Shown here in pieces: positions 6,328 to 27,566 of a stretch of DNA of 34,186 nucleotides. Every line of letters begins with the position of its first letter. The first letter of the stretch is position 1. The DNA lies in contig DYOP01000021.1 of the NCBI GenBank assembly GCA_020720425.1, positions 1 through 34,186 on the forward strand, in the 5' to 3' direction. Position numbers and translations under genes: made by a program. The DNA is from Bdellovibrio sp. (lineage in GTDB: Bacteria > Bdellovibrionota > Bdellovibrionia > Bdellovibrionales > Bdellovibrionaceae). The notes under the pieces were generated by a model. It searched no databases. It was given only the letters and a program-made list of their open reading frames with translations, and was not told where the DNA came from.

Positions 6328-7152
6328 TCATTTTTGCTCCAAATCGGCTGATCTTCGAAATCCCGAATACATTTCGGCAAATTTTTTAGCCTTTGCTGTA
6401 TCCATTAGATTTAAAATTTCAGCCGCATTTTTTTTCTTCATTTTTCCGATAACAGCCACAGCAAGGTCTTCGTCAATTTCCTCAAAAATTTTTGCGGCTT
6501 TTTCTGCTCGCATTGACGAATAAACTTCAACAAGTTGATTGACCTTAACTTCATCAACTTGAATTTGCTCTTTTAACCTTTCTGAAATTGCTTTTTGCAT
6601 TTGCTCTAGCTTAGCAATTTTCTTGTTTAGCTCTTCTGATCTATTAGCTAAATCAGATTCGACTCGAGCTAACTCTTGCTCCCGGGCATCCAACTCTTTT
6701 GATCGTTTTACTAAACTGCTAAGATGATCTACGCTTAACGTACGACCACTATTATGACCATCTTGCTCTGCACTCCCAGAAGCCGCGTCAGCCAATTCAC
6801 CAGGGGCTTTATTTGAATTATCATGCGTTGTTGATTTAACTTCACTACCACCGTGCACCGAATCTACTTCGGTTTTATGGTTACCCTCTTTTTCTTGAGA
6901 GCTGGCAAATGAAACCGGAAACATATTAAAACTAATTTTTGGAAAATTAAATGATTCATCAATTGCTAAAAGACCTAGCATACAAGCGCCCACACCAAAC
7001 AAACTGAGCAGAATGGGTGTTGATTTATTTTTTTTGATTTTTTTTGAATTTTGCTTAAGTTTAGATTTAGGCATAGCTTTTTTACTAAGATCACTGTGGT
7101 CTTTTACTGAGTTAACTTTTTTAAAAAAATCTTGGTAACCATTTTGACTCAT
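6328..7152 (-). CDS. MotE-like protein (MgtE N-terminal-type domain), membrane anchored
   Basis: 274 aa. A basic N-terminus (residues 1-44) leads to one membrane segment (about 45-65, STPILLSLFGVGACMLGLL). A low-complexity linker, a heptad-rich coiled coil (about 145-205) and a C-terminal helical repeat (KAAKIFEEIDEDLAVAVIGKM, KNAAEILNLMDTAKAKKFAEM) follow. That repeat is typical of MgtE N-domain/MotE proteins found beside fliJ and fliK in many flagellar operons. In rhizobia MotE is a periplasmic chaperone for the motility protein MotC; whether that applies here is unknown. The topology suggests that most of the protein is periplasmic. ATG overlaps the fliJ stop (ATGA), so translation is coupled. 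Confidence 0.8.
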   Translation of the reverse strand: MSQNGYQDFFKKVNSVKDHSDLSKKAMPKSKLKQNSKKIKKNKSTPILLSLFGVGACMLGLLAIDESFNFPKISFNMFPVSFASSQEKEGNHKTEVDSVHGGSEVKSTTHDNSNKAPGELADAASGSAEQDGHNSGRTLSVDHLSSLVKRSKELDAREQELARVESDLANRSEELNKKIAKLEQMQKAISERLKEQIQVDEVKVNQLVEVYSSMRAEKAAKIFEEIDEDLAVAVIGKMKKKNAAEILNLMDTAKAKKFAEMYSGFRRSADLEQK

Positions 7153-10745: not shown

Positions 10746-12401
10746 TTACTCCCTTTTGGCAACCCACATACCCAATGCTCCCGCTGCTTTTTCAGAGTCA
10801 TCTTCTAAAATAGTCATAATACGATCTTTTAAAAGTTCAGCTTCAGCTTTTTCAGGATCAATATTTTGTTCTAAAACGGGCAATGCCGAGCTCATCCCAG
10901 GTAATGTCGAATCAACCGAGTGAAGCTCTTCTAATTCTTCGATAGTTCGGGGTAACATTTCATCGACTGTTTGCTGAAAGCTATCAGTTATCCATTGCAT
11001 AAATGGTCTTACAACTAAAAAGAAAAATAGGGCTAACGAAAACCCAAGTAGGCCCCATTTCATAAAGGTACTGATTAGTTTTTTTCTTTCAAGCGTAGTT
11101 AAAATTTTTTCAGATTCACTAAAATCTTCGATAGCAAATTGCATACTTTCTACTTTTACCGAATCCCCACGGGCCGCATTAAATCCGATAGCTCCTTTTA
11201 TAAGCTCTTCATATTTTTTTAAATCTTCGGGTGTTCTTGGACTCCAAACGGGCTCTTTTGTATCGCCTTCAGCATTGGGTTTAACTGTGCCATCAACAAT
11301 AACGGCCACACTTATTTTTTCGAGCTGGCCTGCCATTTCTTTAATATTTTTAATTGTTTTTGGCACTTCATAATTAAGTGTTTTAATTTCGCGCTTAACA
11401 TCTTGCTTAAATCCAACCTGTGACCCCGCTGGGTTTGATGTTTCAGAGTTTGGTAAATTCGATTGCACTCCCGGAATTCCTGATGGCTGCAGCCGGGCTC
11501 CATCCATTTTTTCTTCTTCTGATTGCTGAGAGCGGATTGCTGTTTTTTCGGGATCTATAATTTCTTCAACAGACTGGATCACTTTAGAGCTTAAAGTCAC
11601 ATCAACTTTTGTAACGACTTTAGCTTGTCCTGCAACTTTTGACAAAAGAGTTTGTATACGATCTTCAAACTCCGACTCAGTTCGCTTTTTTATATCTAAA
11701 AGCTCACTTGAACCACCCGTCGAAGCCGAGTCAATCCGACTTAACATTTTTCCGCGGTCATCCAACACTGTTACCTTATCCGGATCCAAACTTTCAACAG
11801 CTGATGCCACCAAATGCTGAACGCCCCTGACTTGATCAGGGTTTAGAGTTTTACCTGCATACAACTCAATAACAACGCTCGCACTTGGTTTTGCACCTTC
11901 TTCGATAAATGTTTTTTTATTTGGAATAGCTAGTAACACCTTAGATTGTTTAACTGAGGACAAGGTATTAATTGCCCTAATCAGCTCACCTTGAATCGCC
12001 CTTTGATAATTAATTTTTTGAGAATAAGAGCTTGCCGAATAATCTTGTTTATCAAATAGCTCTAAACCGATTGAGCCAATTTTTGTCGAACCAAGCTCAC
12101 TCATGATCCCCATTTGAGTAGCTGGTAGCAATTCCTTAGGTACGGATATTGTTTGACCATCTTCATTAATTTTGAATGGAATTTTTTTTTCATTGAGTTT
12201 AGAAACAATCAAAGGAATCTGATCGCTTGGAACATTCGTAAGTAACACAGCATAATCCTTACCTGCAACCATAAACACAGATACAATCGCCGAAATAAAA
12301 ATCACCGCAGTTGCGGCAATTAATGACATTCGCTTTGTGGGCCCAAGGCCCTTAAAATACTCTCTAAATTGAGCAAAAATCTGCAAAAACAGTTTGTTCA
12401 A
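10746..12401 (-). CDS. fliF: Flagellar MS-ring protein FliF
   Basis: FliF forms the inner-membrane MS ring on which the export apparatus and rod assemble. The 551-aa protein has TM1 (about 26-46), a periplasmic YscJ/FliF-type region (DYAVLLTNVPSDQIPLIVSKL, QKINYQRAIQGELIRAINTL, VKQSKVLLAIPNKKTF), a disordered middle (SNLPNSETSNPAG), TM2 near the C-terminus (WGLLGFSLALFFFLVVRPFM) and a cytoplasmic tail ending GALGMWVAKRE that binds FliG. The start is TTG, preceded closely by AGGGGGA. The resulting N-terminus MNKLFLQIFAQFREYF is typical of FliF, and no better ATG exists before TM1. Confidence 0.96.
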   Translation of the reverse strand: MNKLFLQIFAQFREYFKGLGPTKRMSLIAATAVIFISAIVSVFMVAGKDYAVLLTNVPSDQIPLIVSKLNEKKIPFKINEDGQTISVPKELLPATQMGIMSELGSTKIGSIGLELFDKQDYSASSYSQKINYQRAIQGELIRAINTLSSVKQSKVLLAIPNKKTFIEEGAKPSASVVIELYAGKTLNPDQVRGVQHLVASAVESLDPDKVTVLDDRGKMLSRIDSASTGGSSELLDIKKRTESEFEDRIQTLLSKVAGQAKVVTKVDVTLSSKVIQSVEEIIDPEKTAIRSQQSEEEKMDGARLQPSGIPGVQSNLPNSETSNPAGSQVGFKQDVKREIKTLNYEVPKTIKNIKEMAGQLEKISVAVIVDGTVKPNAEGDTKEPVWSPRTPEDLKKYEELIKGAIGFNAARGDSVKVESMQFAIEDFSESEKILTTLERKKLISTFMKWGLLGFSLALFFFLVVRPFMQWITDSFQQTVDEMLPRTIEELEELHSVDSTLPGMSSALPVLEQNIDPEKAEAELLKDRIMTILEDDSEKAAGALGMWVAKRE

Positions 12402-12410
12402 AAATCCCCC

Positions 12411-12725
12411 TTATGCCTGCATTTTCATTATTTCTTGATATGCCTCTAACATTTTATTTCGTACCTGTACCATTAATCTTAAGGCGATATCTGCTTTTTC
12501 AGCCGTTATGAGTACGTCAGAAATATTATCTGTTCTTCCTGTAGCAAGTTTTTCAGCTTCTTTGTTTGCTGTTACTTGCAAATCATTAACATCGGTTATG
12601 GCTTTGGTAAGGGTATCTGAAAAACTAGCACCCGCAGAAGTCGAGTGAGAAAGATCTTTTGACTTTATATCAAAAGAGTTTTCACCTTTTAAGGCTTGAT
12701 TAGGAATATATCGAATACCATCCAT
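12411..12725 (-). CDS. fliE: Flagellar hook-basal body protein FliE
   Basis: A 104-aa protein at the MS ring-rod junction, the first export substrate. The C-terminal two thirds match FliE: SFSDTLTKAITDVNDLQVTANKEAEKLATG, then DVLITAEKADIALRLMVQVRNKMLEAYQEIMKMQA. The ATG has AGGAGA upstream. It is separated from flgC by about 80 AT-rich bases with no obvious terminator, so it is probably in the same transcript. It is followed directly by fliF, its ring partner. Confidence 0.96.
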   Translation of the reverse strand: MDGIRYIPNQALKGENSFDIKSKDLSHSTSAGASFSDTLTKAITDVNDLQVTANKEAEKLATGRTDNISDVLITAEKADIALRLMVQVRNKMLEAYQEIMKMQA

Positions 12726-12805: not shown

Positions 12806-13249
12806 TTATCTACCAATTTCTAGCGAGGCTAGGGCCATATCTTTTGCTGCCTGTAAGGCTGAGACGTTAGCTTCGTAGGCACGAGTGGCTTGCATCATAT
12901 TAGTCATTTCTTCCATCATATTAATATTAGGATAAGCCACATAGCCGTCTTTATTAGCATCCACATGATTTGGCTCATATTTAAGAAGGGGCATCGATTT
13001 ACTTTCTTGAATGTCTACAACTTGCACTCGGTCGATCTCAGACCTTGGGCTAGATACTCCTAACACCTCACCAAAACTTTTTGTGTCAGGAATAGCTTGA
13101 AATATAACATCCTTTTTTTTATATGGCCCACCCTCATTAGTTCGTGTGGTATTAATATTAGCAATATTACTTGATATGGTGTTAAGCCTTGTGCGCTGAG
13201 CACTTAGCCCGCTTCCGCTTACGCGAAACCCAGAAAAAAAATTATCCAT
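12806..13249 (-). CDS. flgC: Flagellar basal-body rod protein FlgC
   Basis: A 147-aa proximal rod protein. It carries the rod N-terminal motif (FRVSGSGLSAQRTRLNTISSNIANINTTRT), the GGPYKKKDVIF segment that follows it in FlgC, and the C-terminal helix (MMEEMTNMMQATRAYEANVSALQAAKDMALASLEIGR). Length is the usual one. The ATG begins 2 bases after the flgB stop, so the pair is translationally coupled. Confidence 0.97.
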   Translation of the reverse strand: MDNFFSGFRVSGSGLSAQRTRLNTISSNIANINTTRTNEGGPYKKKDVIFQAIPDTKSFGEVLGVSSPRSEIDRVQVVDIQESKSMPLLKYEPNHVDANKDGYVAYPNINMMEEMTNMMQATRAYEANVSALQAAKDMALASLEIGR

Positions 13250-13251
13250 AA

Positions 13252-13662
13252 CTATCTGCCCTCGCTCACAGCATATTTAAGCTGAGCTAGTTTTTTATTA
13301 ATTAACTGAATTGCCGCCTTATGCTGAAGTTGATTTTCGGCGAGCATGGTCATTTCACTTTCTAAATCGACCGTGTTACCATCATTTGAGGTAGCCCCAA
13401 CAGGGTTGTCATATATTTCAGTTTTAACAGCCGCTGACAAATCCCCACCAACCGAAAAATGATCATTATGACTTGTTGATACTTTTCTTAAACCATCTAA
13501 ATCTACACTTCGAGCAAGTGCTTCTTCGAAATCCATTTTTTTGGCGTGGTAACCTGGGGTTTCGGCATTTGCAATATTGGACGAAATTAAATTATGCCTT
13601 AATAGTCTCATATTAGCCGCAGTGGCAAGAGCTTGAGTTGTTTTATCAAATATTTGGCTCAT
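13252..13662 (-). CDS. flgB: Flagellar basal-body rod protein FlgB
   Basis: A 136-aa proximal rod protein. Diagnostic features are the N-terminal NLISSNIANAETPGYHAKKMDFEEAL and the NTVDLESEMTMLAENQLQHKAAIQLINKKL C-terminal helix. It has a ribosome site AAAGGAG 7 bases before ATG, formed by the last codons of the upstream TPR gene, so its translation may be coupled to that gene. It is followed at once by flgC. Confidence 0.97.
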   Translation of the reverse strand: MSQIFDKTTQALATAANMRLLRHNLISSNIANAETPGYHAKKMDFEEALARSVDLDGLRKVSTSHNDHFSVGGDLSAAVKTEIYDNPVGATSNDGNTVDLESEMTMLAENQLQHKAAIQLINKKLAQLKYAVSEGR

Positions 13663-13666
13663 AAGT

Positions 13667-16600
13667 TTACTCCTTTACGTTACTTGCTGGACTATCTGTT
13701 TGAGAAAAGGCAGGAATACGCTTAATATAGTTTCGATAATCACTTTTAAAAGCCTCACTCGATTTTTCAGATTTGACTAATTTGCTCCAAACACTTTCTT
13801 TATTTTCTAGCGGGTTCCATGTAGCTACCGCATTTTTTAAATCCCCTTTTTCAAGATATAGCTTTCCTAACTCAAATCGTTTACTTTCTAATGGAAATTT
13901 ATTTTCATACCGAATTAAATAATCAGACAATAAAGTCATATATTCTGGCTTAGTAACTGTCGGCTTTAAATCACTATCAGAAGAGGCTGTATTCGCACTT
14001 TTCGAATTGTTAGATAGACCCGCAGCTCTCATAGCAACAGTAGAACTTTCAGCATTCGCTTTATCAATATCCGCTTTAATAACATTAATATACTTTGATT
14101 CAGCTTGAAAACATTTGAAAAGATCTTCTTCGGCAACCGATTTACAAAGCTTTGAAAGGCGAGGTCCAATATTTATTATTTCAACTGTATTATTGGCCTG
14201 TGATAATAGATTTACTTTTTCTAACACTAAACTTAATTCATTACCTTTTGAATAATTTTTTATGGTCAGCAAATCATTAATATATCTTAAAGCGTACTCT
14301 GATTGACCCCTCTCAGATAAAAGCTTTGAGTGTAATATTGATTTTTTAATTTTTAAATCTTCTGATAATAAATCACTTTGTTTATCAGATTCTTTTAAAT
14401 ACTCCGATGCATCTGAATATTTTTTATCCTGAATCAAAGCATCGGCAAGTTCTAATTTAATTTGTGCTAACTCAGGTAATTTTTCATTATAAATTCTAAT
14501 TTTTCCATTTACAGATTCTTTATCTAAAGAACTCAATATTTTGATTGAATCAATATAATATTGAGCCGCCTGTTGATACTGACCCAACTTATGAAATATA
14601 TTACCAATGGTATATTGAACATCCATTCGATGAGTACCCTTTAGCCACTTATCGCTTTCTGATTGATGAAATTTCAATGAATCAATTTTATTAGAGGCTG
14701 CCATTTGCACAAACTTTTTTGAGGTTTCATTTTGAATTTTTGAATAATAGATTTTTGAAAGAGGCCCTGAGGGGTTAGCTTGGTAACTCTGGATAAGCAT
14801 CTCTAAGGATTTATCGTAATCACCTTTTTCACTGAGGGCTTGAGCAATTACGAACTCTGCAAAATTATCGGCAAATTTGAGATTTGATTGATTTGCAAGT
14901 TTTTTTATTTCATTAATTGCCGAAACTTGGGCTTTTTCTTTTAAAGTAGGCAATTGTTTTTGCAACATTCGAATTCTAGAAAAAATTGCAGTCGAGCTTT
15001 CACCCGTGCCATAGCGAAAATAGGCTTCTTGATAAGCTCCAAGCGATCGGGCCGAATTGACCGATAGAATATCAATAATTTCACCAATTCGAGTCAGAGC
15101 ATAACCAGAAAATTTATCCGAAGGAAATGCTTTTACAAAATCTAAATATCTCTCAAGAGCTAACTCAAATTTATCAAGTCGAAATAAAACCGAAGCCCAA
15201 TTATATAAAAATCTTTCTTCACTTAATATCATATTTTTATGAATATTATATATATTTAAAAACACATCATCAGCGTCTTTCCATTGAGATTGGGCAATAT
15301 ATGTATCTGCCAATATAAGTTTCCATTTAAGTAAACATAATTGTTCGGCTTGATTACAACCTTCAGCAATCATTTTTTTTGAAATCGTAGTCGCATCAGC
15401 ATATTGTGCAGCCCCCATTAAGGCTTTGACTAAGGCCAATTTGCTTTGACTCGACCGGGGCGAATCCTGAAATTTTGTTGTGTGCCTTTGAAGCCATTTT
15501 ACAGCCATAATATAGTCTTTACTTTCTAGCGCTGTATATCCCATAAATAATACAGCTCTCTCGGTCATATTGGATTGAGGATACTGCTCTATGGCCTCTT
15601 CATAAAATGACTGAGCAATACTAAGATGCTTTTGATATTTCTTTTTATCATCTTGAAAAAGCAAATAATGCGAATCTGCTTTCATAAATTTAACAAGCTC
15701 ATCATATTTTGATTTTGTAAATTTTTTATTAAACCATTCTGCAGTTTTAAAAAACACAAAGTATCTTTTATTTTTAAATAATTTTACAAGCAGCTGTGCC
15801 ATTTTAACTTCTTCAGCTGATATGTCTTTATTTGTAATATCTTGTTCTAATACCTCATAGGTCGGCATATTTTGTTTCATTTTATCAAGGGCCTTAAGCC
15901 TATCATTTAAAAATGGATAATCGATGTAGTCTTGTAACCTAGAATAAACAAGGGGATCAGCTCTTAGCTCAGATCGCGGGACTTTAAATCTTTCAAAATC
16001 AAGATCGGCCCCATCTAATAAGCCAGCGGGCAGTGTCGATACGGGTTCTTCATTTAAAAGAACAATTTCTTGAGCCGGATTACGCTGAATAGAAAAATCT
16101 TGAACAAGCTTATCAAACTTTGAACTTTTAGGAGATGCTATTTTTTTTTCGCTTAATATAGTTGGTTTTAATTTTTTATTTTTCGACTCGGATTCACTAT
16201 TCTGTGCTTTTGTGACCTGCTTTTCATCTGCGTAAAAATCAATTATAAGACTTGAGGGCTTACCATTAAAATATTCAAACACGCTCCATTTATTTTTACT
16301 TTTTGATGAATCAATCCTAATAACATCATAGCTAACCGTCGACTGCGCTTTGTCATAACTCATAACAATACCATCTGGTAACTTTAATTTAAGAGCCGCA
16401 TTTAGCTGCTCAAGGTTAAGTTTAGGTAGTTTAATGCTATAGATATCTAAAGCTGATTCAACTTTATAATCCCATTGATCAGCTCCCGTAAAACTAAGAC
16501 TAATAGAACTCGGATTGATCTTGGGGCTTAAATTGACTTGAGCAACGAGTGAATTTGAAAACAAATAAATTAATAGAAAATTGAGAGCCTTAACTTTCAA
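13667..16600 (-). CDS. Large secreted TPR-repeat protein, first gene of the flgB operon
   Basis: About 977 aa. The N-terminus MKVKALNFLLIYLFSNSLVAQVNL is a classic signal peptide with cleavage expected after the VAQ region, so the mature protein is probably periplasmic or outer-membrane associated; no lipobox Cys is seen. Residues up to about 130 look like a beta-rich domain. The rest is a series of helical repeats of TPR type, for example YTIGNIFHKLGQYQQAAQYYIDSIK, ILADTYIAQSQWKDADDVFLNIYN and FELGKLYLEKGDLKNAVATW. The start is TTG 16600 with AGGAGG 6 bases upstream; a TTG 18 bases earlier lacks a site. I cannot match it to a named flagellar protein. Its place as the first gene behind a sigma-54-like promoter, ending 4 bases before flgB, argues for a role in building or anchoring the basal body (inference). 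Confidence 0.85.
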   Translation of the reverse strand: MKVKALNFLLIYLFSNSLVAQVNLSPKINPSSISLSFTGADQWDYKVESALDIYSIKLPKLNLEQLNAALKLKLPDGIVMSYDKAQSTVSYDVIRIDSSKSKNKWSVFEYFNGKPSSLIIDFYADEKQVTKAQNSESESKNKKLKPTILSEKKIASPKSSKFDKLVQDFSIQRNPAQEIVLLNEEPVSTLPAGLLDGADLDFERFKVPRSELRADPLVYSRLQDYIDYPFLNDRLKALDKMKQNMPTYEVLEQDITNKDISAEEVKMAQLLVKLFKNKRYFVFFKTAEWFNKKFTKSKYDELVKFMKADSHYLLFQDDKKKYQKHLSIAQSFYEEAIEQYPQSNMTERAVLFMGYTALESKDYIMAVKWLQRHTTKFQDSPRSSQSKLALVKALMGAAQYADATTISKKMIAEGCNQAEQLCLLKWKLILADTYIAQSQWKDADDVFLNIYNIHKNMILSEERFLYNWASVLFRLDKFELALERYLDFVKAFPSDKFSGYALTRIGEIIDILSVNSARSLGAYQEAYFRYGTGESSTAIFSRIRMLQKQLPTLKEKAQVSAINEIKKLANQSNLKFADNFAEFVIAQALSEKGDYDKSLEMLIQSYQANPSGPLSKIYYSKIQNETSKKFVQMAASNKIDSLKFHQSESDKWLKGTHRMDVQYTIGNIFHKLGQYQQAAQYYIDSIKILSSLDKESVNGKIRIYNEKLPELAQIKLELADALIQDKKYSDASEYLKESDKQSDLLSEDLKIKKSILHSKLLSERGQSEYALRYINDLLTIKNYSKGNELSLVLEKVNLLSQANNTVEIINIGPRLSKLCKSVAEEDLFKCFQAESKYINVIKADIDKANAESSTVAMRAAGLSNNSKSANTASSDSDLKPTVTKPEYMTLLSDYLIRYENKFPLESKRFELGKLYLEKGDLKNAVATWNPLENKESVWSKLVKSEKSSEAFKSDYRNYIKRIPAFSQTDSPASNVKE

Positions 16601-16640
16601 AATGCGCCTCCTGCACAAACATTGAGTTCAATCATATTAA

Positions 16641-16656
16641 TGCATTTTCGGTGCCA
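16641..16656 (-). promoter_or_regulatory. Sigma-54 (-24/-12) promoter for the TPR-flgB operon
   Basis: On the minus strand TGGCACCGAAAATGCA shows the invariant GG (16655-16654) and GC (16643-16642) with ten bases between. The -24 hexamer is perfect, and the -12 element differs from TTGCA at one base. The expected start of transcription is near 16630, giving a leader of about 30 bases that contains the AGGAGG site of the TPR gene. Confidence 0.75.
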
Positions 16657-23886: not shown

Positions 23887-24165
23887 TTATTCTCCTGCTC
23901 TTACAAAATCCGGAATCGACTCAAATAAACTAATTGTATAATTCATAACAACATCTAACATCCAAGGGCCAGCTAATGCGATAATCAGTCCCACAATAAC
24001 AATTTTCGGAATAAAGCTAAGGGTGGCTTCGTTAATTTGAGTTATGGCCTGAAAAATACTTACGGCAAGACCCACTCCCAAAGTAGCTATCAATATTGGC
24101 CCTGACAACTTCGCCGTTGTTAAAAGAGCATCATGTGTTAATTTCATAACCACAGCATCAGTCAT
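23887..24165 (-). CDS. fliQ: Flagellar export gate protein FliQ
   Basis: About 92 aa with two membrane segments (LLTTAKLSGPILIATLGVGLAVSIFQAITQINEATLSFIPKIVIVGL, then a second near the C-terminus), matching FliQ in size and in the Q-x-x-T-Q-I-N-E-x-T-L-S-F-x-P-K motif. The ATG at 24165 was chosen because GGAGG, formed by the last fliP codons, lies 6 bases before it. An in-frame TTG two codons earlier is too close to that site. Confidence 0.97.
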   Translation of the reverse strand: MTDAVVMKLTHDALLTTAKLSGPILIATLGVGLAVSIFQAITQINEATLSFIPKIVIVGLIIALAGPWMLDVVMNYTISLFESIPDFVRAGE

Positions 24166-24167
24166 TA

Positions 24168-24923
24168 TCAACCTCCAAAACTTTTAACGAGTGCACCAAT
24201 GGTCAAACTCCATCCATCAACTAAAACAAATAGCATTATTTTTAATGGCAATGATATGACCACAGGTGGTAACATCATCATCCCCATCGCCATCAATACA
24301 CTTGAAACTACAATATCAATAACTAAAAAAGGTAAAAACAACATAAACCCAATTTGAAATGATGTTTTTAGCTCGGAGATAATAAATGATGGCACCAAAA
24401 CAAAAGTAGAAACCTCTGCTAAACTTTTTGGAGCTTCTGATTTTGATAACCTTACAAAAAGAGATAAGTCTTCGTTACGAGTTTGTTTAAACATAAACAT
24501 ACGAAGGGGCTTGAGGGCATTATCTAAAGCTACCGACTGAGATAAGGTCCCATCCATATATGGCTTTAATGCGTTGGCATTTATTTCTTCAAATGCTGGC
24601 TTCATAATAAATGCAGTTAAAAATAGAGCCAGTCCAACCAACAATTGATTAGGGGGTAGCTGTTGCACTCCTAATGCCTGACGCAAAAATGATAACACGA
24701 CGATAATGCGAGTAAAACTTGTCATCATTATTAAAATAGCTGGGGCTAATGTTAATACCGTTAACATTAAAATAATTTTTATTGCTGATACAACTTCCGT
24801 TGGATTATCCGTCGTTTTAAATCCCATATTTATACTAGGATAAGCAATTTGAGCCTGGAGTTTTGCACCAATAAAAATCACAAAAAAGGCAATAAAAAAT
24901 AAAAAATATTTATTATTTTTCAT
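24168..24923 (-). CDS. fliP: Flagellar export gate protein FliP
   Basis: A 251-aa protein. A cleavable signal sequence ([25 protein letters not shown]) is followed by the conserved core: [51 protein letters not shown], then [41 protein letters not shown]. FliP forms the pentameric base of the export channel with FliQ and FliR encoded just downstream. The ATG lies 3 bases after the fliO stop. Confidence 0.98.
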
Positions 24924-26926: not shown

Positions 26927-27478
26927 TTAGTTATATATAAATCCTGTAAAATAAATATTTTCAACTTTACCCTCTGACATAAAAGCATTTATTGTATCTT
27001 TCATTTCTACCCTTAATTTTTCTCTTCCTTCAGTGGTTGAAACAGACTCATAGGTTTTGCTCGATAAAAGCATGATTATAATATCTCGAATTTGAGCATT
27101 TCTACGATCGACTTCATCTTTGGCTTCAAGGTTATTTAGCTCAAGTTCGACACTTACTTTGGCTACCCTTCGACCTCGGCTTCCTGATAAATTGACAACA
27201 AAAGTTTCAAGCGGAATGATTGGCTTTACCGACTGCGCTTCGTGTTCGCGCTCTTTATGCTGAGTTTCTATTTCTCCCCTTACAACAGCATCAATTCCTG
27301 GACTTTTTTCTTCGGCTTTTTTTGCCTGATATACCATAAAGGCGATGGCACCAACTACGATGGTATTAACTAAAACCAAGGCCAAAACAATGATATTCAT
27401 TTTGCTACCCGACTTCGCACTTCCGTGCGCGCCCCCCTCAGCTGCTGAAGTTGCCGGCGTTGCCGCTTCTTCTGCCAT
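26927..27478 (-). CDS. fliL: Flagellar basal-body-associated protein FliL
   Basis: A 183-aa single-pass membrane protein that surrounds the stator and supports torque. An Ala/Gly/Ser-rich cytosolic N-terminus precedes one membrane segment (about 27-49, MNIIVLALVLVNTIVVGAIAFMV) and a periplasmic FliL domain (IPLETFVVNLSGSRGRRVAKVSVELEL, RDIIIMLLSSKTYESVSTTEGREKLRVEMKDTINAF, VENIYFTGFIYN). The ATG has AAGGAGG 7 bases upstream. It is the first gene of the fliL-fliA block, with a sigma-54-like promoter about 75 bases upstream. Confidence 0.96.
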   Translation of the reverse strand: MAEEAATPATSAAEGGAHGSAKSGSKMNIIVLALVLVNTIVVGAIAFMVYQAKKAEEKSPGIDAVVRGEIETQHKEREHEAQSVKPIIPLETFVVNLSGSRGRRVAKVSVELELNNLEAKDEVDRRNAQIRDIIIMLLSSKTYESVSTTEGREKLRVEMKDTINAFMSEGKVENIYFTGFIYN

Positions 27479-27550: not shown

Positions 27551-27566
27551 AGCAACAAAGATGCCA
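27551..27566 (-). promoter_or_regulatory. Sigma-54 (-24/-12) promoter upstream of fliL
   Basis: The minus strand reads TGGCATCTTTGTTGCT, with GG (27565-27564) and GC (27553-27552) ten bases apart. It differs from the TGGCAC-N5-TTGCT consensus at a single -24 base. Predicted transcription start is near 27540, leaving a leader of about 60 bases before fliL. No paired CAGA-N6-TCTG dyads were seen upstream. Confidence 0.7.

Follow-up and report, generated by a model that had tools for sequence, protein, structure and literature searches.

What does a 977-aa protein with an apparent signal peptide and many TPR-like repeats do at the head of a run of flagellar rod and MS-ring genes? The gene (here the spoke gene, after the role proposed for its product) lies in a 34,186-nucleotide stretch of Bdellovibrio sp. 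DNA (contig DYOP01000021.1; the window), which carries two minus-strand runs of flagellar genes.

The Gene and Its Product

The open frame of the spoke gene spans 13667..16618 on the minus strand, with a likely TTG start at 16600 preceded by AGGAGG (Table 1); the length and extent given in the first-pass annotation hold, as does the interval of 4 bp between its stop and the start of flgB. The gene heads its run at a distance of 259 bp from fliA, and this spacing and the sigma-54 promoter match in front of it bear out the promoter-proximal position that had been claimed. The upstream run comprises fliL, fliM, fliN, fliO, fliP, a short open reading frame (ORF) at the fliQ position, fliR, flhB, flhA, flhF, a gene for an flhG-type ATPase, and fliA. 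The spoke gene is followed by flgB, flgC, fliE, fliF, fliG, fliH, fliI, fliJ, a gene with an MgtE_N domain, a fliK-type gene, flgD, a small "Flagellar_put" gene, and a flgE-type hook gene; exact names in both runs were assigned from Pfam domain and position.

Table 1. Features of the spoke gene, its product and its surroundings (positions in the window)
Feature	Residues	Position	Strand	Basis or remark
Probable AMIN-TPR spoke gene, PflA type	1-977	13667..16600	minus	TTG start at 16600, stop codon included; 977 aa
Putative signal peptide, MKVKALNFLLIYLFSNSLVAQ	1 to about 21	16538..16600	minus	TTG read as M; classical type, read by eye
Predicted AMIN-type beta-sandwich	22-124	16229..16537	minus	AlphaFold model, structural realignment
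Predicted disordered linker	134-196	16013..16201	minus	pLDDT < 50
Main TPR-like superhelix	262-862	14015..15817	minus	Pfam matches and model
Conserved C-terminal TPR-like module	894-967	13700..13921	minus	Conservation and model
flgB		13252..13662	minus	Rod-protein domain and position before flgC
flgC		12806..13249	minus	Domains and position
fliE		12411..12725	minus	Pfam domain
fliF (MS ring)		10746..12401	minus	Pfam domain
Probable E-ring protein (FlgY/MotE/FlbB type)		6328-7152	minus	Between fliJ and fliK-type gene
Short ORF at fliQ position		23887-24171	minus	Placed by position
fliL		26927..27478	minus	First gene of upstream flagellar gene run
Sigma-54 promoter match, TGGCACCGAAAATGCA		16641-16656	minus	Ahead of spoke gene
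Second sigma-54 match of the window		27551-27566	minus	Ahead of fliL

Read by eye, the N-terminus is that of a classical signal peptide, in agreement with the earlier claim; the three top hydropathy windows of the protein all begin at residues 1-6, and most of the complete orthologues have an N-terminus that looks comparably hydrophobic. The many TPR-like repeats that had been noticed are likewise evident, with Pfam matches above cut-off to TPR_12 (4e-11) and TPR_2 (6e-10).

Orthologues were compared in two alignments, one of 24 proteins (A1) and one of 57 rows including the window (A2). Ten of the 70 named loci were left out: eight with cut, truncated or fused proteins, and two on short contigs without flgB (L062 and L077). 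Also omitted were L040 (with a long 5' extension), L069 (97% identical to L063), L083, and L091, which has no stop. The best-conserved 25-residue blocks are 501-525, 101-125, 651-675, and 201-225; between 801 and 900 the sequence varies, and conservation returns from 901, in the C-terminal module. The linker is not conserved in length, the segment at 129-172 varying from 16 to 92 aa in the 57 rows. Residues 173-233, directly C-terminal of this variable linker, are conserved and partly disordered in the predicted structure, and are a candidate segment for partner binding.

Predicted Structure

An AlphaFold2 model built from the 57 orthologues (mean pLDDT 82.3) consists of a hydrophobic N-terminus, a beta-sandwich, a disordered linker and TPR helices, with the C-terminal TPR-like module modelled at residues 884-966. 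By hand count, 33 helices of more than four residues lie between residues 262 and 961, corresponding to about 16 hairpins and some 16-17 TPRs. The beta-rich N-domain that had been proposed as possible appears in the model as strands spanning 22-124, where the block pLDDT is mostly 86-92 and never below 70, and the domain predicted alone reaches a pLDDT of 92.9.

When the full-length model was compared with 350,542 PDB chains using Foldseek, the first-ranked match was a chain of the Campylobacter jejuni flagellar periplasmic scaffold (9hmf_K; E 6.2e-13), followed by a chain of a Pol II elongation complex (E 4.5e-9). We take 9hmf_K to be PflA because its 773 residues equal PflA 16-788, a construct named in PMC11870540. 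The alignment extends over 975 columns of the alpha-carbon trace of a flexible superhelix, with an rmsd of 35 and low TM-scores (0.20/0.24), as is expected when a bent superhelix is carried by a flexible linker; entry 9hmf is missing from the best 50 rows returned for the full-length model by a second structural aligner. We regard the full-length match of the predicted structure as suggestive, not as proof.

In a Foldseek search with the N-domain by itself, no match reached E ≤ 0.001; the list is headed by small heat-shock proteins and AmiC, with 9hmf_K at rank 41. Structural realignment placed it closest to AMIN domains, namely those of AmiC (Z 12.0, rmsd 2.4, 99 residues) and PilQ (Z 10.6, rmsd 2.9, 98 residues), and the solved N-domain of PflA (9leq_A) ranked sixth (rmsd 3.5, 92 residues) with a Z of 8.0, which is the aligner's own margin for a common arrangement; small heat-shock proteins score below AMIN domains and PflA (Z 6.9 and below, versus Z 8-12). 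At the sequence level, no Pfam family is found in more of the orthologue N-domains than AMIN (15 of 57 with E values up to 10, the best being 1.5e-4; three for the runner-up), and the window protein's own N-domain is without such a match. A profile of the N-domain found nothing among PDB sequences up to E 10, and a whole-protein profile found no bacterial flagellar chain among the 60 of its 120 matches listed; in what these searches listed, no sequence match to PflA was seen. As modelled, the N-domain is an AMIN-type beta-sandwich. AMIN domains of amidases bind peptidoglycan.

Distribution and Gene Order

Strong matches to the spoke protein (E 3e-35 or better) were found in 56 of 59 genomes, including the window's own; the corresponding counts are 55 for FliF and 54 for the MgtE_N protein. 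Where a strong match is lacking (G025, which is 54% complete, G038 and G039), FliF and the MgtE_N protein are missing as well, G038 having a spoke match at E 7e-4 only. One genome has the spoke protein and no FliF match (G049), and two have the spoke protein and FliF and no MgtE_N match (G009 and G013); all three assemblies are incomplete (72-86%).

A table of class genomes, restricted to those of at least 90% completeness and to strong spoke matches, contains 106 genomes among the matches listed: 94 have both the spoke protein and FliF, two the spoke protein only (G161 and G176, incomplete or fragmented assemblies), none FliF only, and ten neither. The associated Fisher p of 2e-12 overstates the evidence because the genomes are related, nine of the ten that have neither belonging to one family (f4) and the tenth (G141) to another (f1). 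Weak spoke matches (5e-12 to 3e-5) occur in eight of these ten and are taken as generic TPR proteins. Joint loss of the two genes is in part a consequence of their shared locus: in 92 of 96 class genomes they lie on one contig and strand, 1.2-3.0 kb apart, and the other four have no FliF match or have FliF on another contig, owing to contig breaks. The follow-up search of orthologues and synteny asked whether the spoke gene is absent or has moved in relatives with motors, and its outcome did not refute the proposed flagellar association. Nine small genomes of the order, all in family f4 (1.2-2.4 Mb; G039, G164, G165, and G178-G183) are without FliF and without a strong spoke match, and are apparently non-flagellated, as judged by FliF alone.

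The association extends outside the class. At all nine distant loci chosen among the matches listed (L102-L110), a protein of 798-982 aa is encoded upstream of flgB-flgC-fliE-fliF, and profiles of the class and distant groups align with a probability of 100% (E 8e-68, 822 columns), a score to which the TPRs themselves contribute; two of the nine proteins (L106 and L107) show by eye no AMIN-like start. FliF is listed for 27 of the 47 distant genomes among the matches listed and is co-linear with the spoke gene in 25 (2.3-5.6 kb), the two genes being on different contigs in the other two. Weak TPR matches outside the class, above all those in family f12, were excluded from the orthologue counts.

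The spoke gene is upstream of flgB or fliF at every one of the 66 named loci (of 70) that extend as far as flgB. Direct contact with flgB, as in the window's lineage and a few others, is the rarer arrangement; at 60 of the 66 the spoke gene is separated from flgB by a match to a further gene (about 280 aa). In three examples (L102, L104, and G036) Pfam identifies this as a sigma-54 activator with a Fis-type HTH; the best NCBIfam match of the G036 activator is FlbD, below cut-off. The window's genome has no close copy of it, the best match (36% identical) being in a 463-aa frame. At L018/L044 a single open frame of 1217 aa spans the spoke and activator genes, through either a fusion or an assembly error. 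A record titled as a Streptomyces griseus MAG (L042) has the Bdellovibrionia-type flagellar gene order and is probably a mislabelled bin.

Promoter and Probable E-Ring Partner

The window contains exactly two exact matches to TGGCAYN6TGCW, one ahead of the spoke gene and one ahead of fliL, that is, one for each flagellar gene run (0.35 expected; at least two occurred in five of 100 shuffles). As rpoN is present in the window's genome, both runs appear from these matches to be sigma-54 driven. Among related and hence non-independent loci (65 of the 70 named), a site scoring at least 8 of 10 is found near the start of the spoke gene in 61, compared with 249 of 2,975 control stretches (8.4%) from the same loci; with the window added, the count is 62 of 66, compared with 4.0 expected from shuffles. 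Two of the 62 sites (L072 and L099) do not begin with TGGCAY and are probably due to chance. Outside the class, four of the nine distant loci have a site, and no high-scoring one was found at the other five (L102, L104, L105, L106, and L110).

The run headed by the spoke gene also includes a gene whose product carries MgtE_N (PF03448; 33.8 bits, cut-off 25.9) at its C-terminus, a domain used in this position as a marker of E-ring proteins in the literature. The protein has a hydrophobic stretch at about 46-64 and, by eye, a probable coiled coil. Its score against the FlbB equivalog NF047368 (38.1 bits, E 1.3e-9) is below the cut-off of 110; judged by its sequence, it may be a relative of FlbB, not the spirochaete equivalog itself.

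A Proposed Role as a Motor Spoke

The literature drawn on includes PMC13023049, PMC5758724, PMC11870540, PMC12222027, PMC11656739, and PMC12546842. According to it, PflA of C. jejuni is the spoke of the proximal disk, located near the inner membrane; the spokes contact FlgY, the PflA linker wraps PflB, and motors of cells without pflA have no stator densities. C. jejuni cells that lose FlgY keep their stators and their motility, so contact with the E ring need not be essential. In Bdellovibrio bacteriovorus, a 12-fold inner-membrane ring was described in the motor, and a PflA-like TPR protein was speculated to form it (Chaban et al. 2018); the authors of a 2025 C. jejuni structure paper state that their own data support this speculation. 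A 2025 preprint (PMC11870540) counts as possible relatives the TPR proteins that about 52% of flagellated species encode close to flagellar genes. For the spoke protein itself, no functional study, motor image or mutant was found in the open-licence literature searched.

Our analysis supports, with a probability of roughly 0.8, the identification of the spoke gene as the Bdellovibrionota counterpart of PflA, encoding spokes that would join a collar at the MS ring to the stators and peptidoglycan; we infer the location, orientation, partners and effect on stators. The protein would be exported to the periplasm, where its TPR superhelix would serve as one of the spokes set radially about the MS ring. 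For the inner, axis-side end the conserved C-terminal module is the strongest candidate; it may grip the coiled coil of the probable E-ring protein from the same run, and the AMIN domain, on its flexible linker, would point outward to the zone of peptidoglycan, of the stator (FliL/MotB), or of both. Arranged in a ring, such spokes would define where the stators sit and hold them there, and this ring might correspond to the 12-fold ring of B. bacteriovorus motors.

The first-pass annotation had envisaged a scaffold for a ring-like periplasmic addition to the basal body, specific to the lineage. The repeat scaffold of a basal-body ring is retained, on the basis of the PflA fold and the position upstream of flgB or fliF; its novelty is not, since the B. 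bacteriovorus protein had already been noted by Chaban et al. 2018.

Three other roles were weighed. The protein could assist assembly of the early basal body (rod or MS ring) as a chaperone or periplasmic adaptor, its TPRs holding exported subunits without its becoming a permanent part of a ring. That its gene shares a run, and the conserved promoter match ahead of it, with genes for the rod and the MS ring would suit such a role, as would the common use of TPRs to bind partner segments, but the combination of AMIN domain, linker and TPRs is the architecture of a structural spoke, and the ring of the B. bacteriovorus motor awaits a protein; we consider a chaperone improbable. The link to the outer membrane or a flagellar sheath that had also been suggested found no support and is very improbable: the N-terminus shows by eye no lipobox cysteine, the protein has an AMIN domain, which points to the peptidoglycan or stator side, instead of an outer-membrane anchor, and its solved counterpart PflA occupies the inner-membrane-proximal disk; with no anchor visible, this role was set aside. 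It is scarcely credible that the gene encodes a general envelope TPR protein (YbgF/CpoB/BamD type) merely housed in a flagellar operon, and a Tol-Pal YbgF identity (TIGR02795) was rejected, since the NCBIfam scores of the window protein for tol_pal_ybgF (38.8 bits) and BamD (18.8 bits) are far below the cut-offs of 90.1 and 81.4, the one higher score, 95.8 bits for tol_pal_ybgF in the G036 orthologue, spans only a stretch of its TPRs and is taken for a generic TPR hit, PRK10803 CpoB (263 positions) has less than a third of the protein's length, and full-length matches adjoin flagellar genes, the ten class genomes without FliF being also without a strong match.

A spoke of the PflA type could be part of a simpler machine than that of Campylobacter. 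Tentatively, and with more doubt than attaches to the spoke itself, we suggest that Bdellovibrionota may possess a minimal two-part scaffold, in which an E-ring collar and a single AMIN-TPR spoke gripping peptidoglycan, with no PflB rim and encoded with the MS ring in one sigma-54-driven run, would set 12 stator positions. If this is correct, the two-part scaffold would be a surviving example of the earlier state that the high-torque disk of Campylobacter was later built upon.

A PflA-like role for the sister protein in B. bacteriovorus had been proposed in 2018. Our additions comprise a structural match, the AMIN assignment, the data on gene order and on co-occurrence with FliF, and the promoter, none of which was found for Bdellovibrionota in the literature covered. 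The identity of the protein behind the Bdellovibrio inner-membrane ring has been a guess since 2018; it is now directly testable, given the kinship to PflA by structure, the gene order in the class and at the nine loci outside it, and the E-ring-type gene in the same run.

Comparison with Known Systems

It had been stated that no standard flagellar protein has such an architecture; this is incorrect, since C. jejuni PflA and C. sphaeroides MotK share it. PflA (C. jejuni / Helicobacter pylori) and the spoke protein each have a signal peptide, an AMIN-like beta-sandwich, a disordered linker and about 16 TPRs; both are flagellar, and both occur alongside an E-ring protein of the FlgY type, a probable one in the case of the spoke protein. 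The spoke protein is the larger (977 aa, versus 788 for PflA), and its linker length is not conserved.

MotK and MotC of Sinorhizobium meliloti, likened here by their published descriptions, are TPR flagellar proteins that act with MotE, an MgtE_N protein; MotK has an N-terminal AMIN domain, as does the spoke protein, and both MotK and MotC are alphaproteobacterial, unlike it. FlcA contains TPRs. With FlcB, it belongs to the collar proteins that in Borrelia are built on FlbB around the MS ring, a likeness again drawn from published descriptions.

Also comparable is WP_011165745.1 of B. bacteriovorus, a TPR protein of ~1000 aa from a flagellar operon, described by its domain layout in Chaban et al. 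2018; compared by description of the accession, it is very probably the orthologue of the spoke protein. The spoke gene and the E-ring-type gene of its run fit the published view in which E ring and spoke are an old shared module and the Campylobacter disk is a later elaboration.
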